DNA from: Liolophura sinensis
Lineage: Eukaryota; Mollusca; Polyplacophora; Chitonida; Chitonidae
DNA length: 64,000 nucleotides
Direction of reading: 5' to 3'
NCBI RefSeq assembly: GCF_032854445.1
Contig: NC_088300.1
Coordinates: 3,970,001-4,034,000 of the forward strand
Under the pieces are notes generated by a model. The model ran no database searches and was not told the DNA's origin. It was given only the letters and a program-made list of their open reading frames with translations. The stretch's first letter is position 1; every line of letters starts with the position of its first letter. Both the position numbers and the translations under genes were made by a program. Shown one piece after another: positions 19,437 through 51,000 of this stretch.

Positions 19437-21190
19437 CAATGTTATCACCTCATATCCTACACTACCACCCAATGTCCTACACTACCACCTTATCCTACAC
19501 TACCACCCAATGTCCTACACTACCGCCTGATATCCTATTCTACTACCCAATATCCTGCACTACCACCTCATTATCTTACACTACCACCTCATCATCCTAT
19601 TCTACTACCGCTATCCTACACTACCACCTCACATCCTGCACTATCACCTGATTATCCTACACTACCACCTCATATCATACACTATCACGTCATTATCCTA
19701 CATTAATACCCTCATATCCTATGCTACCACCTCATATCCTACACTATCACCTCATATCCTATACTACCACCTCATGTCCCACACGACCACCTCATATCCT
19801 GAACTACCACCTCATATCCCATACTACCACCTCATATAATACGCTACCACTTCATATCCTATTCTACCACCTCACATCGTACACTACCACTTCATATCCC
19901 TATACTACCACCTCGTATCGTACACTACCACCTCGTATCGTACACTACCACCTCGTATCGTACACTACCACTTCATTGTCCTATTCATTATCCTATTCTA
20001 CTACCTCACTACCCACCTCATATCGTACACTACCACCTCATTACCCTATTCTACCACCTCATTACCCTATTCTAACCACCTCATATCATACACTAACCAC
20101 CTCACATCCTACACTACCACATCATATCCTGTACTACCACCTCGTATCGTACACTACCACTTCATTATCCTATTCTACTACCTCATATCTTAACACTACC
20201 ACCTCATATCGTACACTACCACCTGATTATCTACACTACCACCTCATATCCCACACTACACCTCATATCCTATTCTACTATCTCATACCCTGCACACCTC
20301 ATATCCTACACTAACCATCCTCGTATCGTACACTACCACTTCATTATCCTATTCTACTACCTCATATCTTACACTACCACCTCAATATCGTACACTACCA
20401 CCTGATTATCTACACTACCACCTCATATCTTACACTACCACCTCATATCGTACACTACCACCTGATTATCTACACTGCCACCTCTCATATCCCACACTAC
20501 ACCTCATATCCTATTCTACTATCGCCATACCCTGCACACCTCATATCCTACACTACCACCTCGTATCGTACACTACCACTTCATTATCCTATTCTACTAC
20601 CTCATATCTTACACTACCACCTCATATCGTACACTACCACCTGATTATCTACACTACCACCTCATATCCCACACTACCACCTCATATCCCACACAACCAC
20701 CTCATATCCTATTCTACTATTCATACCCTGCACACCTTATATCCTACACTACCACCTCATTAATCCTACACTACCATCTCATATCCTACACTACCACCTC
20801 ATTAATCCTACACTACCACCTCATTAATCCTACACTACCATCTCATATCCTACACTACCACCTCATTAATCCTACACTACCACTTCATATCCTACACTAC
20901 CACCTCATATCCTACACTACCACTTCATATCATATTCCAATACCTCATACGCTACACTAACATCTCATATCCTACACTACCTTCTCATATCCTACACTAC
21001 CACTTCATTATCCTATTCTGCTACCTTAATATCCTTCACTAGCACCTCATATCCTGCACTCGCACCTAATTATCGTATACTACCACCTCATCATCCTATT
21101 GTACTACCTCCTACCCTGCACTACCACCTCATATCCTACACTATTACCTCATATCTACACTATCACCTCATATCCTGCACTACTCATGAC
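19437..21190. repeat. Satellite-like array of about 20-bp units, 1.75 kb
   Basis: Roughly 85 copies of a unit near TCATATCCTACACTACCACC. Recurrent variants include CGTATCGTACAC, ATTATCCTATTCTACTACC and GATTATCTACAC. A block of nine such units beginning CTCGTATCG recurs at 20141, 20320 and 20560 with the same variant order, so part of the array has higher-order structure. Open frames rich in Tyr, Thr, His and Pro across the array are artefacts. Confidence 0.95.
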
Positions 21191-27469: not shown

Positions 27470-28365
27470 GATTGTCATAGCTGCTTCATCGGTTCCGTCT
27501 CACGTCATTTAACACGTCATGGTTGTATCACCGGTTCTGTCTAACCAGACGACATTTATCACCTGTCGTGACAGATTCATCGGTTCTGTCTAACCAGACG
27601 ACATTTATCCCCTGTCGTGTCTGATTCACTGATTGTGAAACCAGGTCGCAGCTTTTACACTGTTGTCGCTACTTAATCGATTAAATCTCAGAAGTCTGTT
27701 GTCTCCTTGTAGTCACTGCTTAATCGAATCCCTCTGACCAGACATCAGTTACCACGCTGCTTCAGTGGCTGTACAAGACGCCATCTATCACACTTGTCGT
27801 TCCTTCAACGATTGTGTTACGCAGATTCCAGCTCTTCCACCGAATCGATTTTGTCTGTTCCGATACCAATTAGCACAATGTCGTCGCTTCTTCACCAGTA
27901 ATGTCCGAACAAGCACGAGTTATCATATTTTTTCGCTGCTTCACCAGTTCTGTCTGACCAGGCGCAAGTTATAACATTGCTGTCGTTGCTTCACCAGTTC
28001 TGTCTGTCCAGGCGCCAGTTATCACATTGCTGTCGCTTCTTCATCAGTTCTGTCTGACCAGGCGCAAGTTTTCACATTGTTGTCGCTGCTTCACCGGTTC
28101 TGTCTGATCAGGTGCAAGTTATCACATTGCTGTCACTGCTTCACCAGTTCTGTCTGACCAGGCACCTGTTATCACATTGACGTCGCTGCTTCATCAGCTC
28201 TGTCTGACCAGGCGCAAGTTGCCACACTATTATCGCTGCTTCATCAGTTCTGTCTGACCAGGCGCCAGTTATCACATTGTTGTCGCTGTTTCATCAGCTT
28301 TGTCTGACCAGGCGCCTGTTATCACATTGTTGTCGCTGCTTCGCCAGTTCTGTCTGACCATCACG
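27470..28365. repeat. 50-bp minisatellite, clean at the right end, degenerate at the left
   Basis: From about 27900 the motif CAGTTCTGTCTGACCAGGCGC recurs exactly every 50 bp (the GGCGC segment at 27961, 28011, 28061 and on to about 28311). To the left, diverged copies reach about 27470. It is the first of three arrays lying 3' of CRNKL1. Confidence 0.93.
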
Positions 28366-28719
28366 CTGGACTTGAACTCATCGCTGATATATAGAAGACG
28401 ATAGTTCAGTGGAACTATACTTTTTAATGATCAAGCACATAGATTTTCATATTCATACATATTTTCCCCACTAGGCATAACGAGGCAAAGCATAATAGAA
28501 TCATCACTGAAATTGAAATGGATATACCTTGTAGCGTAGGCCTTCATCTGACAATGTCTTTCGGAGTTACACACGTAAAACCTCAATCAATAAATCTTTA
28601 GTAGCTGCTTTCTTTGTCCACATTTTTCCCTAACACATGTCACAGCGTGCTCGATAGGGTTGACTGTGGTCTTAAGAAAGGAATGTAGTACCAGACAGCA
28701 GTTCCTGTAAACGCTTGAG

Positions 28720-29885
28720 TCAGGTACTGACATGCCTTCCATGTCAGACATCAGTCCCTGTTCTAGTCAGGCACTTAGCCTTTCATGTCAGACATCAGTC
28801 CCTGTTCTAGTCAGGCACTTAGCCTTTCATGTCAGACATCAGTCCCTGTTCTAGTCAGGCACTTAACCTTTCATGTCAGACATCAGTCCCTGTTCTAGTC
28901 AGGCACTTAGCCTTTCATGTCAGACATCAGTCCCTGTTCTAGTCAGGCACTTAGCCTTTCATGTCAGACATCAGTCCCTGTTTTAGTCAGGCACTTAGCC
29001 TTCCATGTCAGACATCAATCCCTGTTCTAGTCAGGACCGGTCTTTCACGCCAGGCAGCAATCAATGTTCTAGTCAGGAACGGTTTTTCACGCCAGGAAGC
29101 AATCAATGTCCTAGTCAGGATCGGTTTTTCACGCCAGACATCAGTCCCTGTCCTAGTGAGGCACTCAGCTTTCCCTGTTCTTGTCAGGTAAATAGCCTTC
29201 CATGTCAGACACCCGTCCCTGTTCTTGTCAGGCACACAGTCTTCCATGTCAGACATCAGTCCCTGTTCTTGTCAGGCAAATAGCCTTCCATGTCAGATAT
29301 CAGTCCCTGTTCTAATCAGGCACTTAGCCTTCCATGTCAGACATCAGTCCCTGTTCTTGTCAGATATATGTCCCTGTTCTTGTCAGGTAAACAGCCTTCC
29401 AAGTCAAATATCAGTCCCTGTTCTAGTCAGGCACTTGGCCTTCCATGTCAGACATCAGTCCCTGATTTAGTCAGGAACTTAGCCTTCCATGTCCCTGTTC
29501 TAGTCAGGCACTTGGCCTTCCATGTCAGACATCAGTCCCTCTTTTAGTCAGGCACTTGGCCTTCCATGTCAGACATAAGTCCCTGTACTAGTCAGGCACT
29601 TGGCCTTCCATGTCAGACATCAGTCCCTGATTTAGTCAGGAACTTAGCCTTCCATGTAGGACTCGAGTCGATGTTCTAGTCAGGCACTTAGCCTTCCATG
29701 TAGGACACCCGTCCCTGTTCTAGTCAGGAACTTGGCCTTCCATGTCAGACATCAGTCCCTCTTTTAGTCAGGCACTTAGCCTTCCATGTCAGACATAAGT
29801 CCCTGTTCTAGTCAGGCACTTAGCCCTCCATGCCAGACATCAGTCCCTGTTCTAGTCAGGAACAGTTCTTCACACCAGGCAGCAG
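28720..29885. repeat. 44-bp minisatellite, about 26 copies
   Basis: The unit reads close to ATGTCAGACATCAGTCCCTG followed by TTCTAGTCAGGCACTTAGCC and begins ATGTCAGACA at 28741, 28785 and so on. Several copies are truncated or replaced by a variant containing TTTCACGCCAGGCAGCAATC (29040-29130, and a related end at 29865-29885). Frames of about 80 residues in several phases are artefacts of the array. Confidence 0.95.
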
Positions 29886-29906
29886 ACACTGAACAGCAAC
29901 ACTTAA

Positions 29907-30031
29907 GTTGACTTGACCAACATGGACTACAGTTGACTTGACCAGCATGGGCAACAGTTGACTTGACCAGCATGAGCTACAGCTGACTTGACCAGCATGG
30001 GCTACAGTTGACTTGACCAGCCTGGGCTACA
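29907..30031. repeat. 25-bp tandem repeat, 5 copies
   Basis: GTTGACTTGACCAGCATGGG-type units start at 29907, 29932, 29957, 29982 and 30007. They directly follow the 44-bp array. Confidence 0.95.
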
Positions 30032-31124: not shown

Positions 31125-31877
31125 CTATGAGCGTTCACGGTCACTGTCTTCACCTGAACTACTACTGCTACTACTACTGTCACTACTGCTCCCACTGCTA
31201 CTGCTACTGCTACTACTGGACTTTCGTCTGCGCCGCTTTTGTCGCTTGCTATTTTCTTCTCGATGCCTGCTTTCCCCTGACCTTCTGTCTCTGGTATCCT
31301 GCTCTCCTCTCTTGCCCCTTCTCCTTCTATCCTCGTCATCCTCCTTCTCAGAATCTTCATCCTCACTGTCAGTTGTCTGCTTTGGATATTTTCTTGAATC
31401 TCTTCTTGATCCCACCTCGATCTCCTTTACTTTCTCTTGGTCAACTTTTGTAACACCGCTTCCATCCTTTCCCCTGTCCTGAGTGTCTTTTCCCTCAGGA
31501 TCCCCTGTTTTGCTTACTATTGAAACATCTACTCTTTCATCTTCTTCCTTAAAAGCAGAAACCCTGTTACTGGTGTCTTCACTTGTCGATTCAGCCTCCT
31601 GACTGTCATCGCTCTCACTGCTGCCTTTACTGCTTCCTCCTGTAGCATCCTCCGTTGTCTTCGCTTGCAGAGCATCCTGTGAAGAGCTTGGCTGCTCCTG
31701 AGAACTCTGCCCTGCCTTGTCATCCTCGTCATCATCTTCCTCATCCTCCTCCTCATCACTGCTCTGCTCCTGCTTCTCCTTCCACTTCTTGGCCATGGCC
31801 AGCAGTTTAAGGTTGGGCTGAGCGGCCTCCTCATCAGGGAAGATGTAGTCGTAGTACTCCTCCCAGCCAGCGTCAGT
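31125..31877 (-). CDS. CRNKL1: CRNKL1 exon 16 (last), long acidic/Ser/Arg tail
   Basis: Begins [16 protein letters not shown] and [18 protein letters not shown], where vertebrate proteins end soon after. It then continues about 190 residues: an acidic run ([15 protein letters not shown]), a Ser/Glu/Asp-rich middle, a basic-acidic stretch, and a poly-Ser block before RERS and a TAG stop at 31127-31125. The frame is open for 250 codons without a break, so I take the tail as real. Antisense frames over it are artefacts of the CT-rich sequence. Confidence 0.92.
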   Translation of the reverse strand, partial: TDAGWEEYYDYIFPDEEAAQPNLKLLAMAKKWKEKQEQSSDEEEDEEDDDEDDKAGQSSQEQPSSSQDALQAKTTEDATGGSSKGSSESDDSQEAESTSEDTSNRVSAFKEEDERVDVSIVSKTGDPEGKDTQDRGKDGSGVTKVDQEKVKEIEVGSRRDSRKYPKQTTDSEDEDSEKEDDEDRRRRGKRGEQDTRDRRSGESRHREENSKRQKRRRRKSSSSSSSSSGSSSDSSSSSSSSGEDSDRERS

Positions 31878-34800
31878 CTGAAACAACATCCCCATCAGAA
31901 TGGCCTTATTTCTGTCTTACCATATGTAAATACAGGTCTAAAGTTACTTTTACAATGGACATAATCAAACAGATCGATCTGGGTGACATTTTTAATCAGT
32001 ATCAACAAGACAATAGTATGTTTTCCACTTATTCTAAAACCTTCAGTTCTGCTTACTTCCTATCAGAAAAGTATTATTATTAGCAATTATCTAACTACAG
32101 GATTGCTGGTTTCATCAGATAAATTTGTGGCAACATCTTACTAAAACAATGGTTTCTAGGGTGGCCCACTTGTCTCAAAGACAATTTTCTTCCTTCAGTC
32201 TACTCTTCAGCATGCTGGAAAAAACACAAACAAGGGGAGAAAACTGTGACCTACCCCATCCTCAGTCTGGATCTTCCTTCTCTTCTTCACTTTTTGTGGC
32301 ATGAGTTTCTGTACTGTCTGAATACACTTCAAATCCCCAACCTCTTGCTGTTAGAATAGATAAAATAGAGAAACATTAAAAACAGAGAAAATTCATATCC
32401 ACAGAGCTTTACATACCTCCCCAGTACCTGACAATCCTAATCCAAGGCTCCTGCCCATACAACAAGGGCTTGATTTGAATTTATTTAATTATTTGTCTGG
32501 TGTTTTACAACGTACTCAAAAATATTTCACTTATACGACGGTGACCAGCAGGCTTGAATTGAATATTCCGCCAGATACTAAAGAGGTTAAAAAAAACTTC
32601 TTCAAGGGAGTTATAAGTACTAGTTTGGTACACCTTCCAGCGTTAAATGAGCAAAAAACATTCTGAAATTATTTGTGTAACTTTAAAATTCTTATTGTGT
32701 TTTACTGCATGTACTTGAAAATAGTTTGAACAAGACAGATATTATGGTCAAAAGTAAAAAAAGGAACATCAGATAAACTCCTATAACAAAGAGGATCTAC
32801 AGGTGTTAAATGAACAAAATAGCTGTGACGTTTTTATCAGAAAGCATGCCCACTGGCTACTGACCTCAAACTCTACCCAGGCCTCCAGTAACATTAGTCT
32901 CTCCTCTTTGTCTTCTAGAGATCTCAGTGACCTATGACCTTCACGGTAAACCTGCCGGGCATTGGCAATAGCATTGTCTTCCTCAGTGGAACGCTCAAAC
33001 TGGGCAAAGCTGACCCAAACCTGACCAATGGGAATGAACAATGGAAATTTGCTTCAAAAGAGCACCCATGAATCTTTGATGAATCCATATTACTGAATGT
33101 GGAAAGATAAATGTATACTCAGTATTTCAGTCAATATTTCTACAGCTACAGAACCTTTTAAATTTATTTTCACATTCTGGTTATTATGGTAAAGATTAGG
33201 GTTGTTTTAAACAGAGGTACACAAAGCTACACAATGTCCCCAAGAACATTATTGCTAAAGGGCTGCTCTATATACCTTGACATGTTGTGTCCTCTCAAGC
33301 AGGCGCCTGTACAAGGCACGAGTGTTCTCATACTCTTCCAAACCAATTTCAAAATCAATGAAGGCTTTCCACAGAACCTCAGGCATGTCCAGCTTAGGTT
33401 GGTTTATGGCCAGGTTATATATAGCACGGGCACGGTCAATGTCTCCCAGGATGGTCTCTAGCTCTGTATACTGTCACAAAAACAGCCCGTATTAAAGGTG
33501 TGTGTTTGGCAGAAGTTACCACATGAACCATGAACTGTATGGTAAATGTAAAATCTGAAAACCAGCTGTACAAATCTGTCAGTGACAATCATTTCAACAA
33601 ACAGATAACCATTTCATTTTTGTGAATAACACAAGATTCAATTGAAGTTTTAAATTCATGGCTAGGTTTGAATTAACCTGGCTGGTAATACACAGCTCAC
33701 TTTAGCAAAACTCATGAATACATTAAAATTGATACTATTTTTTTTCTTAATTCACTAGGTCTTTCAGCACTAAAACCCAGACAATGCCATTTGAGAAAAA
33801 AAAGTTACAGGAAAGATATGTACATTTGAGGGAAAGAACACATAGCCTACTTTCATCCATGTTGTACAATTCTCTGGGTTGAACTCCAGAAATTTCTCAT
33901 ACAGAATCCTACACCTCTCAAACTCTCGGAGCTGGATTTCTAGGTCAATGTAACCTCTGAACAGCTTGTTTTTGGGACATTTCCCAATGGCTGTGCCCTA
34001 GACAAAACAATCATCAAAAATTTCTACTGAAGAAATTCAAAAGTCAGATAAATATTTCACTTTGTACATGTACACAATGGTGTTTCATAGGTTATTGGGG
34101 GGATTATAGAGTACATGTACACAATGGTGTTTCATAGGTTAGTGGGGGGATTATAGAGTACATGTACACAATAGTGTTTCATAGGTTAGTGGGGGGGGGG
34201 ATTATAGAGTACATGTACACAATGGTGTTTCATAGGTTATTGGGGGAATAATAGAGTACATTTACACAATGGTGTTTCATAGGTTAGTGGGGGGGATTAT
34301 AGAGTACATTTACACAATGGTGTTTCATAGGTTAGTGGGGGGGGGGATTATAGAGTACATGTACACAATGGTGTTTCATAGGTTAGTGGGGGGATTATAG
34401 AGTACATGTACACAATGGTGATTCATAGGTTAGTGGGGGGGGGGAATATAGAGTACATGTACACAATGGTGATTCATAGGTTAGTGGGGGGGGATATAGA
34501 GTACATGTACACAATGGTGTTTCATAGGTTAGTGGGGGGAATATAGAGTACATGTACACAATGGTGATTCATAGGTTAGTGGGGGGGGGGGAATATAGAG
34601 TACATGTACACAATGGTGATTCATAGGTTAGTGGGGGGGAGGGAATATAGAGTACATGTACACAATGGTGTTTCATAGGTTAGTGGGGGGAATATAGAGT
34701 ACATGTACACAATGGTGATTCATAGGTTAGTGGGGGGGGAATATAGAGTACATGTACACAATGGTGATTCATAGGTTAGTGGGGGGGGGGGGAGGGAATA

Positions 34801-37800
34801 TAGAGTACATGTACACAATGGTGTTTCATAGGTTAGTGGGGGGAATATAGAGTACATGTACACAATGGTGATTCATAGGTTAGTGGGGGGAATATAGAGT
34901 ACATGTACACAATGGTGTTTCATAGGTTATTGGGGGGGAGGGGAATATAGAGTACATGTACACAATGGTGATTCATAGGTTAGTGGGGGGGGGATTATAG
35001 AGTACATGTACACAATGGTGTTTCATAGGTTAGTGGGGGGATTATAGAGTACATGTACACAATGGTGTTTCATAGGTTAGTGGGGGGATTATAGAGTACA
35101 TGTACACAATGGTGATTCATAGGTTAGTGGGGGGGAGGGAATATAGAGTACAAATATTCAACCTTCCATTTGTGCACAACTGACATGAAATATGTTCACA
35201 GTTCAGCCAGAATCTACATGAATGAAAACTGGAACAAATTTAAATCCTGTATGATTAAATAAAAGCTCCCTCTTTTATCTTCATCGTCAGGCAGTTGAAA
35301 AGAACTATATGAGCAGAATTGGGTAAAAATATGCAACCCTGATCACTTATACCATCATTTTTATTTCAGCTGCAGATGTTCATAAGTGAAAATTTAGACA
35401 CTTTTTAGACTTTTTGGGTCACATACTACAAAACAACCACAAAAATCATAATCAGAAGCTTACCAAAATTTTTCTGGCCTGTTGCAAATTTTTCTGCCGA
35501 ATTTCAAACTGAGCGAAGGAGAGCCAGATCTTGGCGAATGTAAACTTCTTGTGAGGTATAATATCGAGGCAAGCTTTATACACCTGGCGGGTTCTCTCCA
35601 TATCTTCTGCCTCTAACTCCTCAAAGAGAGCATAGTTAATCCACAAGTAGATGTAACGACGCCAATGACGCTTCTCCTGGATGACAACATACACAAGGCT
35701 GCTTTAGGACAGATGTTAGCGATAAAAACAGGTACTCATTCCATGACAGAAGAGTCCTTAATAAGCAAATCCTGAAGTCAGCTATCACATTAATGAATTT
35801 CACAAAAAATATATCATTAACTTAATGGTTGGGTGTTTGGTATAGACTTGGATGTTTATTCACATTTTGAATATAAAATAAATCATTTTAAACTATAAAA
35901 TTTGAAAGTTTAAAATGTTGTTTCATAAATATTCTTAAAAATGTAAAGGCTGTATGTTTTTCACCTCCATACTATAGTCTGAGGTTTGCCATTGTTTATA
36001 TAGACCTTCAGAAATTAAAGGCACTTACCTGTGTTGGAGGTAGATTTGCTATGGCTCTCTCGTAGGTGTCCCGAATCTGTTCTATGTCCTGTTCCGCCTC
36101 TAACAGTCGCAGAAAGTCAAACCAGGCATCATAGTTCATTGGGTTAGATTTCACCTCCTAGAGAGTAGAATACTTGAAAATGTACACAACTAATCAAGTT
36201 TCAAGGTGGTCTCTTGTAGACTTAATTAGCTTGCTCAGTTTGACACATAATCAAATATGAATGTAACAGTGTTTCATATCCCAATATTATTTGGCACATG
36301 TGAACTTGAACATAAAATTTTGGAATTGTATTCCACCAGTGAATAAATGAATAAGAGGACAGTTGATTGAATTTGTTGAAACTTGTGACTGGTCATGAAT
36401 GTATTAATAGTTAAGGCCTAAAGCTTTGAGAATATTTTCTTGGGCTAACATGCTGGTTTTTCATCCTTTCAGAAATTTCTAGCCAATTGTAAGGGTATGA
36501 ATGTCATTTAACAGCAACTGTTAGTGTATACAGACCTCCTCATATTGGAAACGTCTTTTGTTGACAATGACATCCTCAATGGCTGCCCGGCTCCCAAATT
36601 TCTTCTCGTGGACAGTGTAAAACCTGTAAATTTCCTGGCACAGTTCCTTGGGAAGGTGGTCTAATGCATACTTATAGATGACCCGCGCTCGATCATGCTA
36701 CAACAAAACAATCCATGATTTCTCTCAACCTCTATCAAAATAAGTTTTGTTTGGGTGTAAAAATACATTTTCTGGGATGCTCAACACATTTATTTATTTG
36801 ACAGCTTTATTTACACCAAAATAAAAATACTTGACAAATATCACAGAGGTAAGCCAGCTGGATGATTTGATTTATTTATTTATTTATTTGATTGGTGTTT
36901 TACACCATACTCAAAAATATTTCACTTATATGACTGCGGCCAGCATTATGGTGGGAGGAAACCGAGCAGAGCCCTGAGAGAAATCCACAACCATCAGCAG
37001 GGTGTCACAAGACCTTCCCACCTACTAATCACAGTAAAGGCAAGACTAGGAAAAATATTACTTTTGTGCAAATAAACACTTCCATTTACACGTTTCACAC
37101 TCTACATAAAACTGTATATTGTGATATGTAACTGAACTGTTTTGGAACCCCCTGTGTGTTTGTGTACAAACCTCTCTTTGGGTTTCCTCAAACTTCGCAA
37201 ACGCAATCAGCAGTTTCTCATCCATATTTTCCTCCCCAAAGAACTCCACAGCTCGTTCGTAGATCTTCCTGCTGCTGTTGATGTAGCCATTCTTCTCCTC
37301 AAACTTGGCATATTTTATCCAGTTTTTAATTTCAGGATGAGTTATAACAAGTCAGAAAAGTTAAGGACAAAGAGGAGAATTGTCACAATCATACACAAGG
37401 CAAATTAAGACTTTTTTTTACACATACATGTACATTTTTTATTCTCGGAACCACCTTTATTCCAAAGCAGTGTGTAAAGGATATATCGTTCATAGATTGA
37501 TCTGGCCCTGTCCAGTTCTTTGCAACGCAGTTCAAAGTTGATGTAAGAATGCCAGGCCTGTTCATGAGGTTCCCATTCCATCCAGCGCTCAAACACCTGC
37601 CGTGTACCTGAAGTAAACAAAAGTAATCTGTTTATACAATGAGTAAATGGTATGCCTAAGTACTTATATGGTTGACATATTTCAAGAAGCAATGATAATA
37701 TTAAACTGATTTCTCTGTTTGTTTAATTGGTTGATGTTTAAAGCAGAACTTACAAATCACAAAAACTTCCCCTTTAAGACCCTTGTCAGGTTTTTGGGTA

Positions 37801-40800
37801 CTCTCTAAACATACAGCTGAAGCAGCAGGCACTCAATTCAAAGATGCAGTCTCAAGGGTAAAGGGCTCGGTAGTTGCAGCGAGATAGTGCTTTACCCGTC
37901 TGAGCTTTCAGAAACTACAAAACTGATCAGTAATGTCTTTACCCATGGAGACCACAAGCAACCAGAGAGAGCTTGCTGGGGTGTAGGAACCACCTCCTCC
38001 CTAAGTTTCTTCCAGCTCACATGTCATGTAAGCTTCAGGGTGCAACAAGCCACCACTGCCGAGAGATAACAGAGGCAAGATTTTCTCCCGTACAATATAC
38101 GTGTACATACTAATTATTACAGAAAAATATCCCAGGCAATACTGCTGAAATCCTCTGCCACTGTTCTACCTGAAGAGGATGTCACCTTACCAACCTGTCT
38201 ATTATCAGATTATGTCCTAAAGCTTCAAAGAGATGAATGCATCTTGTCAGTCTCTGATCTCATTTTGGAGATATTCCTTGACAACACCACCTCCTGGTCT
38301 GTACAGAAGAAACCATGAACTGACCTGCGATGTTGCCCAACATCTCCTCCATGTAGGTGTACTTGTACCATAGCTGATTGGCTCGGGGTAAGATCGTCAC
38401 TGCTCTATCCCACAGGTTACGTGCGTGGTTGATCTGACGGTTCCTGCAAATTCACAAATTATTCAAACCACCACAATTGCAGTATCATTAGTTCTTTGCA
38501 AGGACTTTGGGAATAGAAGGCCACATGAACTAAAAATCTGCTCAATGCTGTCCTTCAACATTACAAATACAATTTTATCAACATTTTAATACAAATATAT
38601 GCTCATTATTTACAATGCATTATAGTTTAACCAGAATTTGCTGCAACCTTTAATATTTAATTATAATGAGACGTGATATCTCACTTCATCTCCATTTCAG
38701 CGTATTTGAGCCAGACAGTGATGTTTCTGTGGTCTACATCCAACGATCTCTCCCACACCGACCGAGCTCTGAAAAACAAAACAACACTTTACACTGCACA
38801 GTCACTTAACCCACTGATTGAATTATATTTTTATTGCAACCACTGGTCTTTGTTGCATCATTTGGCCACAGCTGAGATCAGGTGCTCAGGTCCAGCTTAG
38901 CTGGTATGGTGGTGGCTGTAAGGCAGGCCGTCAATCAGATACATGGCAAAGATCTTTGGGACTAGTGTCCCTTCAGTCATCCACTCATTGGCCTTACCAT
39001 TGCCATATAAGTGACATATAATATCCAATATTAAACATTAAAACCCAATCAAATAAATCATAGTGATTTACAGTTAATATGGTGATTTTCATAAATTATG
39101 GGAACTGCAAAATTCAAAGCATGTTAATGGTTATATCAATACAAAGTTACTAGACATAGTCAATGATGTGCACTTAATTAATAATTAATCTTGTCTGGCA
39201 CCAAAAATAGATTCTATTAATAGAAACCTTAAGTATAGATGTAATAAAATTGATACCTAGTAAGTAAAACTCGAAGTCTGTACACCGACTTTTCAACTGT
39301 TCAAATAAAAAACTGCCCTGTAAACCCAGACTAAACACGTAAGGGTGAGTGAGTGAGTGCTTGGGGTTTAATGTCGTACTCAACAATTTTTCAGTCATAT
39401 GACAACGAAGGAATCCTTAGGGTGCATGTACGTGTAATATGCCTCCTTGTTGCAGGACGGATTTCCACCGCTCTTTTATTTAGTGCTGCTTCACTGAGAC
39501 GACATACCGAAGGCAAGTAAGCCACCCCGCAAAACACATAAGGAGACAAGACTTTAAACAACTAGATAAAGGAACCATGCGATTGTCATGTTTAAGTACC
39601 TTTGGATCTCTTTCTGGCTCTCTTCCCATTGTGCATATTTAATCCAGTTTGTCATCAGACCACGATTTTTTCTGATGTTGTCTTCAAATGCCTTAAAAAA
39701 TCAACAGGATACATTAAATCCACTCATTCTTTACCAATGGTAAAGAGATTAAAAACTAACGATAAACAATCATTAAGACAGACCATAGAAATATCTTAAT
39801 TTTTTGACTGTATCCATAAGAAAAACACTTTTGTGTTGTTGGTTTTTTGAAACTTGAACTTTATGTTAGGACCTTTCAAAATTCATGTAATAATTTGTAT
39901 GCATGTATAAAGAAAGTAGTTTCCGCTTCTTGAAGTCCATTGTCTAAAGCAAACATCAGAAGGCTGTGACACCTGAATATTAACAGCTGTGATACAAGTA
40001 TCTGAACAAAAATGCTATACCTTTCTTTTTTTAAGACGGTAGTTTGCCAGCTCATCTGGATCAGAGATCTTCTGCTTTGGAGGCTGTGAAGAGAAATCAA
40101 TATTATGCATGTATATTCTTACTATCATCATACGTTACAATGGTAAATTTCATGTATTTCACTGAAAATGTCATTCTCAAGAATGCTTCACATATAACCT
40201 GGCTGTCAAGTTTATAGAAAGTAAAGCTGGCAGAGTGGAAAAAAAAAATTGAATCGCACTTAGTATCTCAGAAAACTTCCCAGCGTTTTAATGAAAAAAC
40301 TAAATTAATGAATTAATTATATCAATACATTGTTAAATTAATACTAAGCGTGAGATCCAGTAAATATTAGCACATTAGATACTGTAACCAAAATGCGGTT
40401 CTCTAACAACCTACCGGAGCTGCAAGTTCCAACTCTCTTTCTTTGGCTTCACGCAGTAATTGTTCTGCTGTAATCTGGACTGGAGCTGGCATTTTATTCT
40501 TCACCTGGTTTAGTGGTGTAAAAAAAATGGGTAAATACAGCAGCAATATACATATAGCGAATAAAATTGGTTTGATTTATTGGTCGCCTGTGCTGTACTC
40601 AAGGCCACTCACTATTTTTATGGGTGGAGGAAATTAGTATGCCTGGAATGTATCAATGGTCAAAGACAACTTATCCATGTCAAATTGCCAAAGCCCCCGT
40701 AAACCTACCTCACCCCACAAAAATAGGACAAGTATCTGTCCTTCAACAAAAGGAACCAATGCTAGCAGGTCTCTAAATAAGACTTGTAACTTTCAGTAAG

Positions 40801-45044: not shown

Positions 45045-48000
45045 GTAAGTTTATTTCGTAATACTTTCAGTTTTCTCTTTTTACAGCTTTCTGTAAAAAC
45101 AAGAAGTGTGGGCATGAAGTTTCATCAATAGCTGCTGCGAAGTGTTCTGTACAGAATTTAGGACAATTAATTTCCAAATTTTTTTCCATGTACAGCTAAA
45201 TGAAAGCAAAGATTAAGCCCAAGTATATGGGAAAGAGTGCCATTATCATAGTATGGCTGTTAAAAACGAGAAAAATACTAGAAAACAAATTTCATTTTTC
45301 TTATCTATTTTTTGTTTGCATGGCAGTGAGAAGGCAGTACTTGCTGTCACCCTAAGTAATGATAAAGAAGAAATCCTGGGACATGCCGCTTTCTTTGACT
45401 ACCCAAGTTCTCCAGAGGTAGACCCAGCTGAGTGGGAGAGCTGGATGGTCCAAAACTACAACACAGAGGACTCTACTGCTTTAAACACTCTCTTTATGCA
45501 CTATTTTGTGGCAAAGAAGGAGTATGCCCATGGCTGTGCCAAAGAAATCATTCGCACAGTATTTAATGCTGTTCCTGATCTTCATTTCTGTTTCTTTATG
45601 GCACCTGCTGGAGTCTACCCAGGTAACATATGACTATATCTGTCAGTAGATGCAAAGGCTTTGAAATAAATAAGGTCAAATTGTAAACAATTTATAACTT
45701 TTGAAGAGTAATACGTGGTCAAAAAGGCTTGTATCAGAAACATCCTGTTCAGATAAATGTTTGAGAGGTATTTGACCAGTGAATAATGGTTTGTTTTTTA
45801 TTTACAGATCCATGCTTATCAGATATCTTTAAGATAGTCAACAAGGTGGTAGGAACCAAAGGAGCTGTAAACAGCAATGTGTTTGGCTGTTTTAGACATG
45901 ATCACGTCCCTGTTTTACACGTGAGACGAGCTAGGTAAGGGAATTTTACAGATATGTATGACTGCATCCTGTCAAGAAGTGTTTGGATGGACCATATTGT
46001 GATGTAGCGCCACACTAAAATTTTGTCCCTTAACTACATCTGGCCTAATAATGTGTGAGACAGGTTGCTGTATGTTGTTCATGTCTTGCCAGTCATGTTG
46101 CAGAGTGAACTGAAGCGCTGAATAAATTACTAGGCTGTGCTAGTCGAGAAACCTTTTTGCCCAGACAGCGTATACATAATAGTTGCCTGATAGTATCCCG
46201 AAACCTCAAACACCAATTCACCTACAGTAGAGAAGGAAAATACCTAAAAAAATCAAAGTAGTTATCACTAAATAGACCACTTAAAACTATGCTTAAATAT
46301 ACTTTCATTTAGTTTTTTAGATTTTCTGAAGAGGGTTAAAGGCGTTTGAATTGCAAGGATGGCTTTATGAACCATACTATCACAGTTTATTAACTCTGAC
46401 GTCACAGGAAGTTTTTTCAACTCTAATCACAACACTGGATGTTGGAATAGCTCTTTTTTAATCATGAGTAAAGATTACTGATAAAAGATTCCCCAAAATT
46501 CCTTCCTTCTGGTAAACATCAGGAAAAATGGTGATGTGACGTCAGAGTTCCAAGATATTGTCATTGTGGCTCATAAAGCCCACCATAGTATTGAAATATT
46601 TGAATGACTTTCTATAAAAAAAAACCTGCAAAAATAAATGAAAGTATTTTTACACAGTTTTCAGTTGTCTGTATGATGAACCTTATTTCACATTTTAGCT
46701 TTCTTTTACTTTAAAATCTTGTTTGGGGGTACTATAACAAACATGAATAATGTGTGGAGCATTGGCATATGAAACTGTCAACATTTAACTTTAGAGTTTA
46801 ACCCTGCATAGTGGTGTTTGTTGTGTAACCCGATATTGCTGAACCTTGTTTTGTACTGAATCAAAGCCCATTGTTGGATATTTAAGTCTATTCTACTCAA
46901 AAAAAATGAAGGAGATGTGAAAAAAAACTGCATATTTAATGCTGCCTTTCTGTTTTACTCCCTCCACAGCGGTCCTGCATTTTAGAGCAATCAACGGCAT
47001 GCTTAAGCCATAGCAGTTGACCTATATACGTCAGTGCTGCGTGTGTATGACGTCATCTCTTATTGTTGCAGGACATCATACCGCTGAGCTCAGATTGGAA
47101 CGTCTTCATACAAATATTTGTGTTTTCATGTTATGGCATCTGGGTGTAAAATATAAAACCTGTAAAAACAAAAGCAATATCTATTAACTGTGTGAAATAA
47201 CACGTTTATCACTGAAAGGAAATTCTGATAGTTCATCTTTATGTAAATCACAAAGCAAACCTTGCTTAATTAAACAAACTCAAATTCTTTTATTTTTAGA
47301 CATAAACAGCAAGAAATGACATAACTCGAGGAAACTATTGTGTTTTGCTTGACACCCATGATGTGATTTGAAAGGTCATATCTATTTAATATGTATATTT
47401 GAACACGGCACGCAAATTATAGCAGGGTAGAATCATGAATTATACCCCAAACCTGCAAGCACCAATTCATCTACCATGTTAAAATCTTGCTTTGGGTACT
47501 ATAACATGAGTAATGTATCGAACATTGACATTCCAAACTATCAATATGTTACTCGTGGATTATATCCCAAAGCCGCAATCACCAGTTGATCTCCCATGTT
47601 AAAATCCTGTTTGGCGTACCATAACACAAGTAATATATCGAGCATTGTCATTCCAAACTGTCTACATATTAGTCCCCTTTATGTAGTATGCCAAAGCAGC
47701 AAACAACAATTCACCTCTCCTATTAAAACCACGCTTGCATGGAGTACTCTATTGACAAGTAATATATAGAGTGTTGACTATTTAAGGGAGAACAAAGTTT
47801 AACTGTTTGTGGGCTACAGTGGCAGTCTTGGGCAATAGTGGTTGGGGATTAGGTGGCGATTCAGTGTGGACTATCCCTCAGTTCAGCCAAAATTTGTGCA
47901 ATGGTCCTCAAGGCCTAGTTAATAAAAGGAAATTTGAAGCTCATATGTGCCAGTCCTTTAAGACCTGGTACCTCAACAATACCCCTTTTTTCAATGTGAG

Positions 48001-51000
48001 ATTATTGCTCCAAGCATGCAAGCCACATTTGAAAAGCCTATGGCTCCTCTCCGCTCTCGATCCCTAAGGGATGTGCCCATTTTCGAATATGGTCACATCT
48101 GAGGTTCCCGACCTTCTCATGCAAACCACATTTGATAAGCAGCAGTTCTGTTGCCCTGACCCTGACTCCGGTTTCCACTACCCACAGACTTGACTGCCGT
48201 TATATAAGTGACAAATCACGGCAATAATCACAAATAAAATAAAATAATAAATCTATCCCACTAGGCTTCAACAGAGGGAGGATACTTTTGCCCGGCGAGA
48301 GTTCAGCTGGGTAGCATGAAGCAGAGCCTGATCTGTCTGATCAGTTACATTTTCATGGGGTGCCATATCATGATATTGCCTTTGGATGAAATATATTTTT
48401 GACTGGTGCTCTAAAACTGGTGCACAGAGAAACAAGAGTAACTCACATCTGCCAGATAGCGGACGGTGACAGTCCAAATAGAGCTAGATTCAAGCCTGTG
48501 ATCCACACTTGAGCCAAATAAGCCAATGAGGACCCTAGGAAACATCAGAAGATTGAATGCAAAATCTTTATATGTATAATGCTTTTTCCAGTGTAGATTA
48601 TGGAAATGTTAACAATGTATGGAGTTGATGCTTTGACCCCTGTGTTAAACACAAATCAAATAAATGAATGAAATAATGTCATGGAGAAGCAAATGGCTTG
48701 TCTTCTCACTCGTTTTCATTATATTTCAAGGTTACTTAGAGACTTTCTTCATCTCTGTTTGACTTGTTATATCACATGTATGTGCATTGACAGGATTGAA
48801 GACCATGATGATCTGACCCCCATCTTTAACCGTCAGAGTGACATGCTGAGTCGTACTTACGGTGACTTCTTCCTGGGAGAGTTGATTGACGCTCAAGATG
48901 AGCACATGCATTGTTTGGTGGCAGAGGTAAAGTATCGTGTGTGATCACTGATATTTGTGTGGTGGTATGTCAGTGGTTAGAGGTGCCCTTAGGAGTGGTC
49001 GTTAGGGCTCACAAGGAGTTGTTTAAAAGTCTGCATTGGACAGGGAGTTAGTAGATTTCCCTGTTCTCACTGCTTATGGGCATTGTTGACAATAAACTGT
49101 TGATGATTCTAAAATGGCCATTCAACACGTGCAATCCAACATTCGTGGACACCACTTCACCAGTATAAGTCCATATCTGTACGTCACATGTGGGAAAGTT
49201 CGTCAGTAACCGTCCAAAGGTCAGTGGTTTTTGCCGGTCACTCCAGTTTCCTCCACCCATAAAAATATCTGCCATCATATAAGTGAAAAATTTGAGTATG
49301 GGGTAGCAACAATCCAAAAAAATTTTAAAAATGTGATTGAGGTCAAGGTTTGGTTGATCCTGGGTTGCCACATAATCATTGGCAGTATTTATCACATATA
49401 TTGTGGTGATTGTGACTATGGTTGAAAAGCTTCTACCATGTCTTTTTCTATAAGTTTGAACTTGGACATGAAGGTTTTGCTATTGATTACTTGACATGTG
49501 CCTTTAGACAATTAAATGTGAATGAAATGGTTTCGATTTTAAATGTGATGTGAAAATGCGTCTTTGTAACATTTTTACTTGGTACCATAAAGCATTTGAT
49601 GTGTTACAGGTTGATGGGACAGCTATTGGGTTCATGAGTATGAGTGATGATGTGAACGTCAACTTGCTAAATGAATGTTTTGAGCTGGCACCTTTCCATG
49701 GACTGAGGAAGCCGCACCCAGAAGATATGGATTCAGCAGATAAAACCTTCACAGCTACACCACCCACACTGGAAAATCAAGGTGAACACATAGTACTCTA
49801 TGTACAGTTTAATTGTTCACAGAATTAACGCTCTAAAAATTAGTACAATTACCTCGGCATCTCTTTGCCATTGATACAGTTCTTCATCCTCATCAGAATA
49901 TAAAACAGGACCTGGTTTCATAAAACTTCATCATACAATAGCATGATGGACGTTTTCTGTTAAGAGACATTTCATGTTGGGCTTGGCAAAACCAACCAAC
50001 AAGCAATGTACTGGACTTTTGTGAAACAGCGCTGAGTTATTGGAAAGCATAGTGTCATTATTGTACATATTTTGTATATATTTCAGCTGGATGTGTGAAA
50101 TGTCTTTGTAGTGTCTCAGCCAAGTGATAGACCAACATGTGGAGAATCTTCTAAATCCGAAGGTTCTAAAGCTTCTGGAGTCAGCTGCCAGTCAGCTGAT
50201 GAGAGTAAAGAGAGAGAGAAGAAAGCTGATGTGGCCCAGGAGGAACAAGTGCCACAGGATGAGGCCACGGGCAAGCTGCCAGGACATAAAAGCCCACAGG
50301 GTATGCCAATGTGTAAAAGTAATTACGAAAACAAGGATTGAATTGTGCATGCAGCTAAACACCAATATGCAAGACATTGTTGGGGTTAAATTTATTCACT
50401 TCTTCCTATTAGGATATATATCTTAATATATCTTTCATCTTTTCCGCCTGCTACACCTTAAAATAAGCATATTATGTTTCACCATATTGAAATGGACAAG
50501 GAGTTTAACTGGATATGCTGAGTGGTTAGCGTCCTAGCGCACCTCCGGAGTCTCTCCCCAATGCGATTGCTGTGAGTTCAAGTCCAGCTCATGCTGGCTC
50601 TATGTGGTTTTCTCCCACTGCAATGCAGGCTGCCCTCCTATGAGTCAAGTATTTTTGAGTAGGGCGCAAAACACCAATCAAATAAATGACTTGTTATGTT
50701 TCTAAACATAGAATGTCTGTATTGACTTTAATTGCTCAGAGTATACACATTTTGAATGCTTGCCAAGTATAGAAGCTTGATGGCACTGTCTTTTTTCCTG
50801 TTCCATGTTACACTTGGGTGCATATGTAAGTAATAGGTGATACTGTTTCAGCGGATGAGGAGGTGAAGGTTTCTCCCAAGCTGAGTGATGCTAACATGGG
50901 AGGGAGTGCTGCCTCTCTGATCAGTGAGGGCAGTGAGGTGGGCTCGGAAAAATCAGCTGGCTGTCACACCCCTCCTCCATCCAAGAACTCCAGGCCAGGG

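Follow-up and report, generated by a model that had tools for sequence, protein, structure and literature searches.

Sequence signals of a very probable U12-type AT-AC intron in the CRNKL1 gene of Liolophura sinensis

The CRNKL1 gene of Liolophura sinensis, found in the 64-kb stretch of DNA analysed here (the window), very probably carries a genuine and ordinary minor-class intron of the U12-type, AT-AC subtype (Table 1). Read on the minus strand from 37484 to 37351, the order of its signals is donor ATATCCTTT, branch TCCTTAAC and terminal TTTTCTGAC, and the sequence around the two junctions is ...TCAATCTATGAACGAT (exon) / ATATCCTTTACAC...CTCTTTGTCCTTAACTTTTCTGAC (intron) / TTGTTATAACTCATCCTGAAATTAAAAACTGG... 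(exon). The U12-type donor pattern ATATCCTT(T) is present at 37484–37476, a TCCTTAAC-type branch site is found near the 3′ splice site at 37367–37360, and the 3′ terminus is AC. The consensus base preceding a U12 branch motif is T, and the CRNKL1 intron has G before TCCTTAAC. The original prediction had placed an AT-AC U12-type intron in CRNKL1 at exactly these coordinates, with donor, branch and AC all present, and had put the branch about 10 nt ahead of the AC, which agrees with its location 9 nt before the intron end. Both the host gene and the U12-type AT-AC class are strongly supported by the sequence, and a dependence of the intron on the minor spliceosome would follow from its signals. 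AT-AC introns had in addition been described as a small minority of the U12 class. They are a minority, but the wording is somewhat strong, as the excerpts available give their share as 24% of minor introns (PMC8280824) and about 26% of human minor introns (PMC10639083).

Table 1. Positions in the window of the CRNKL1 intron, its signals and the adjoining coding features
Feature	Position	Strand	Remarks
Probable AT-AC U12-type intron in CRNKL1	37351..37484	minus	134 nt, phase 1 (after first base of codon)
U12-type 5′ splice site ATATCCTTT	37476..37484	minus	pairing of UCCUUU with the 5′ regions of U11 and U6atac possible
U12-type branch site TCCTTAAC	37360..37367	minus	intron end 9 nt downstream
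AC acceptor dinucleotide	37351..37352	minus	
Upstream CRNKL1 exon (6 in model)	37485..37607	minus	ends ...SIYER plus first base of F codon
Downstream CRNKL1 exon (7 in model)	37172..37350	minus	starts with last two bases of F codon
In-frame TAA under retention	37405..37407	minus	26 residues past ER
CRNKL1 coding region	31125..40492	minus	15 exons and 14 introns, modelled on peptide anchors

When the two flanking exons are joined, the resulting 68-residue query aligns with solved protein chains, with crooked neck-like protein 1 at the top and 68/68 residues aligned without gaps. The best matches are 8c6j_S (E-value = 2.5e-53) and 5mqf_O (E-value = 2.4e-52), both presumably the human chains. Chains of cwf4, crooked neck protein and CLF1 are among those that follow. 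At E-values of 0.001 or below there are 21 distinct sequences in total, and the weaker matches are HAT-repeat relatives, e.g. SYF1 and PRP6. In PMC12256911, as far as the excerpt goes, 8C6J serves as the human CRNKL1 structure. The HAT repeat (PF02184) is complete across the junction once the exons are joined (positions 1–32 of 32, 69.6 bits) and is partial in the unjoined genome (positions 14–32, 35.7 bits). The exon pair is single-copy in the 609-Mb genome, where the two matches are its own two exons at 37172..37350 and 37485..37607; a second copy is rejected, since the genome search returns one place. Pattern matches to the exon pair were also obtained in viral contigs (5) and in prokaryote genomes (31), and none of either set was confirmed as a relative.

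The CRNKL1 model begins at the exon that contains MPAPVQIT, and its 3′ end is an open frame that is unrefined. Thirteen of the 14 modelled introns admit a GT-AG solution; at the 37484/37351 junction AT-AC is the sole solution among GT-AG, GC-AG and AT-AC. An AT-AC join is found as an alternative at three other CRNKL1 junctions, without U12-like donors. The exons that flank the intron had been labelled 7 and 8 by the original prediction. The present model counts them 6 and 7 from the MPAPVQIT exon, and an extra upstream exon could restore the earlier labels.

The surroundings of the gene show several other features. CFAP61 exons are found at plus-strand positions 45300–49800, upstream of CRNKL1, which runs from 40492 to 31125 on the minus strand, and the two genes form a head-to-head pair. 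CFAP61 is supported by Pfam CFAP61_N matches (E-values = 6.3e-31, 8.7e-13 and 4.9e-10) and by solved CFAP61 chains (E-value = 1.8e-15). Human CRNKL1 and CFAP61 also adjoin, and the arrangement would thus represent a very old microsynteny. A 47-bp minisatellite of about 22 copies, with periods of 197 and 244 likewise called, lies at 34064–35152 and occupies much of the CRNKL1 intron at 35463–33998. Downstream of CRNKL1, adjoining tandem arrays with periods of e.g. 49, 50, 44 and 25 are found at 27528–30031 and give rise to repetitive open frames; by eye they appear to be non-coding. Another tandem array, consisting of about 86 copies of a 20-bp unit, is located at 19446–21183.

All joins between the two exons were enumerated for donors at about 37540–37441 and acceptors at about 37420–37290, with the frame kept and stops excluded, and were scored against a reference protein sequence that is in part approximate. 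Among the 1991 in-frame stop-free joins of this stretch there are no GT-AG joins, 4 GC-AG, 8 AT-AC, 8 AT-AG and 3 GT-AC. The top score of 441 belongs to the AT-AC join 37484/37351. The next seven listed joins score 439 or 438 and are length-keeping shifts without recognised termini. Fifteen joins preserve the length and leave both SIYER and HPEIKNW untouched; the sole one of them with AT-AC, GT-AG or GC-AG termini is again 37484/37351. Only the AT-AC join fits because a TGA two codons ahead of GTT closes the frame of the downstream exon, and because AG is absent between that TGA and the KYAK located after HPEIKNW. The earlier claim that in-frame joining with the conserved segment needs an AT-AC pair is thus borne out by the absence of GT-AG joins and by the best score of the AT-AC join.

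Other forms of the junction do not fit the sequence. A GT-AG junction is rejected in the tested stretch, there being no such join among those enumerated. A GC-AG junction is also rejected, as the three listed of the four such joins delete at least 23 residues. A contiguous unspliced exon is rejected in turn, since read-through hits an early stop (TAA, 26 residues). Reads spliced with a GT-AG pair and an unspliced exon were the two outcomes that the original prediction had named as refuting it, and in the tested stretch the sequence contains neither an in-frame GT-AG join nor an open read-through.

Single motifs of this kind are not rare in 64 kb and prove nothing alone. In the window, ATATCCTTT is observed 2 times vs 0.70 expected and TCCTTAAC 1 time vs 2.49 expected. 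First-order modelling of the gene region gives the donor word a probability of 8.2e-6 and the branch word one of 1.9e-5, and the joint chance of both motifs at the right spacing, with 15 length-keeping joins and 13 branch positions, is about 3e-8 (2.2e-8 when 11 joins are assumed instead of 15). The strict U12 AT-AC pattern is found genome-wide at 7 distinct places (9 rows) vs 1 for the reversed control. None of the six other places shows clear coding on both sides, as judged by eye over 210 nt of each flank and for the first AC only, and the place with the longest open flanks (L007) gives no Pfam match (0 families). As these six places are without clear two-sided coding, the strict pattern does not on its own identify an AT-AC intron, and it yields no further intron of this type that could serve as a positive control.

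A search of the genome with Rfam models showed 5 matches for U12 (4 of these over the cut-off), 2 for U6atac, 2 for U11 and 1 for U4atac. Two strong and two weak U12 snRNA matches are grouped on one contig, and one strong match is found on another; the local group includes L001 and L002 (G000 C1:65318678-65336263). Pairing was sought within the 5′-terminal 60 nt of a single copy per snRNA, and 3000 gene words served as random controls. The branch sequence UCCUUACUU, with one A bulged, pairs 9/9 with U12 positions 16–24, which is equalled by 28/3000 of the random words; the unbulged pairing is 8/11. The donor segment UCCUUU forms six consecutive pairs (G-U counted) with U11 positions 3–8, equalled by 760/3000 random words, and six consecutive pairs (G-U counted) with U6atac positions 11–16, equalled by 911/3000. 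The donor pairing is non-discriminating, as 25 to 30% of random words match it, and adds little.

The CCDC84/CENATAC family (PF14968) gives four matches at one locus of the genome, one of them containing TAG. With the patterns applied, this locus displays five donor-like sites and zero branch-like sites. The sole site of the five that was read further, a ATATCCTT site, is unsupported as a U12 donor and lies past a stop in the frame of the exon.

With the general mechanism of minor splicing (U11/U12 di-snRNP, U6atac exchange) as a framework, U11 would bind to the donor and U12 to the branch site of the CRNKL1 intron, the two bound as a di-snRNP, and U11 at the donor would then be exchanged for U6atac. 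The bulged branch A would attack the 5′-terminal base of the intron, and exon ligation would follow at the AC. Human CENATAC promotes A-type minor introns, and the CENATAC relative in this genome would be expected to aid removal of the A-type intron of CRNKL1. In an excerpt of PMC8280824, CENATAC depletion in human cells affected 92% of A-type minor introns, and a section heading describes the splicing of A-type introns as less efficient. By analogy, the CRNKL1 intron may be expected to be equally sensitive to CENATAC depletion. A retained intron meets a stop after 26 residues, and failed splicing would thus lead to a truncated protein or to degradation of the mRNA.

The intron could also be read as a regulatory switch, in which slow removal sets CRNKL1 output and the activity of the minor spliceosome tunes the major one. 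Such a switch is unlikely, although several observations are consistent with it. Retention of the intron yields an early stop, A-type minor introns show relatively high basal retention (PMC8280824), and CRNKL1 depletion increases intron retention in human cells (PMC12256911). SRSF10, RNPC3 and SNRNP48 are reported to be regulated via minor splicing, and such regulation is also suggested for CENATAC (PMC8329584). However, the retention outcome is common to any frame-disrupting minor intron. In addition, no repeats are found in the intron and its RNA fold is ordinary (z = 0.56), 138/200 shuffles folding equally well; the intron as a repetitive or strongly folded element is thus rejected.

Comparison with known switches argues in the same direction. 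As in the SRSF10 and prospero switches, the CRNKL1 intron is an AT-AC minor intron, and SRSF10 is likewise a splicing-regulator gene (PMC8329584). Those switches, however, nest a U2-type intron inside the AT-AC intron, whereas the tested stretch of CRNKL1 is without an in-frame GT-AG join; among the in-frame stop-free joins of that stretch no usable U2-type sites for a nested minor/major switch were found. As in the USSE autoregulation of RNPC3 and SNRNP48, a splicing-factor gene is tied to minor splicing (PMC8329584), but CRNKL1 is without a second exact U12 donor. The donor word RTATCCTT has 4 matches in the 64-kb window, and only the intron's own is in the gene. Regulation of CRNKL1 output through the AT-AC intron, which the original prediction had raised as a possible link, is conceivable and unsupported. 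It also seems distinctly unlikely that CRNKL1 is rate-limited by the intron in this lineage, with the activity of the minor spliceosome (and of CENATAC) setting the level of a core major-splicing protein.

Excision of the AT-AC intron by the major (U2) spliceosome is very improbable. An excerpt of PMC8280824 mentions 85 human major AT-AC introns or related subtypes, but the donor ATATCCTTT, the branch TCCTTAAC near the 3′ end and the bulged-A pairing of 9/9 with U12 all argue against this route for CRNKL1. It is scarcely credible that there is no intron of this form, i.e. that an assembly error masks a GT-AG junction or that the locus is a non-working gene: the bases do rest on a single assembly, but the exon pair is single-copy, the anchored exons have open frames, each of the other 13 junctions admits GT-AG, and both U12 motifs with correct spacing would be an unexpected product of an assembly error.

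The U12-type AT-AC intron of CRNKL1 belongs to an already known kind of introns. Like the animal U12-type AT-AC introns, it has a ATATCCTTT donor, a near-end TCCTTAAC branch, an AC acceptor and a phase other than 0. It is also the one minor intron in a gene whose other modelled introns fit GT-AG, in a genome that has all four minor snRNAs. It differs from the described animal introns of this type in its host gene, which is CRNKL1. A search of an open literature library for a minor intron found co-mentions only for CRNKL1 and SYF3 and no papers for crooked neck; a prior listing in supplementary gene lists is quite possible. The available excerpts of PMC12256911 and PMC545797 contain no mention of a CRNKL1 minor intron. 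The functions of zebrafish minor-intron genes include RNA processing (PMC9501576, in excerpt), so that a minor intron in a gene for a splicing protein is no surprise.

If the intron were rate-limiting for CRNKL1, this would represent a standing dependency of the major spliceosome on the minor one. Microcephaly is named for CRNKL1 variants (PMC12256911), for CENATAC (PMC8280824) and for U4atac (PMC9881141) in the excerpts of these papers. If the intron is conserved, it might bear on phenotypes common to minor-spliceosome and CRNKL1 disorders, and CRNKL1 would serve as a clean reporter, read at a single junction, of the extent to which the major spliceosome depends on the minor one. If it is instead lineage-specific, it would provide one extra data point on how U12 introns are gained, lost and converted.
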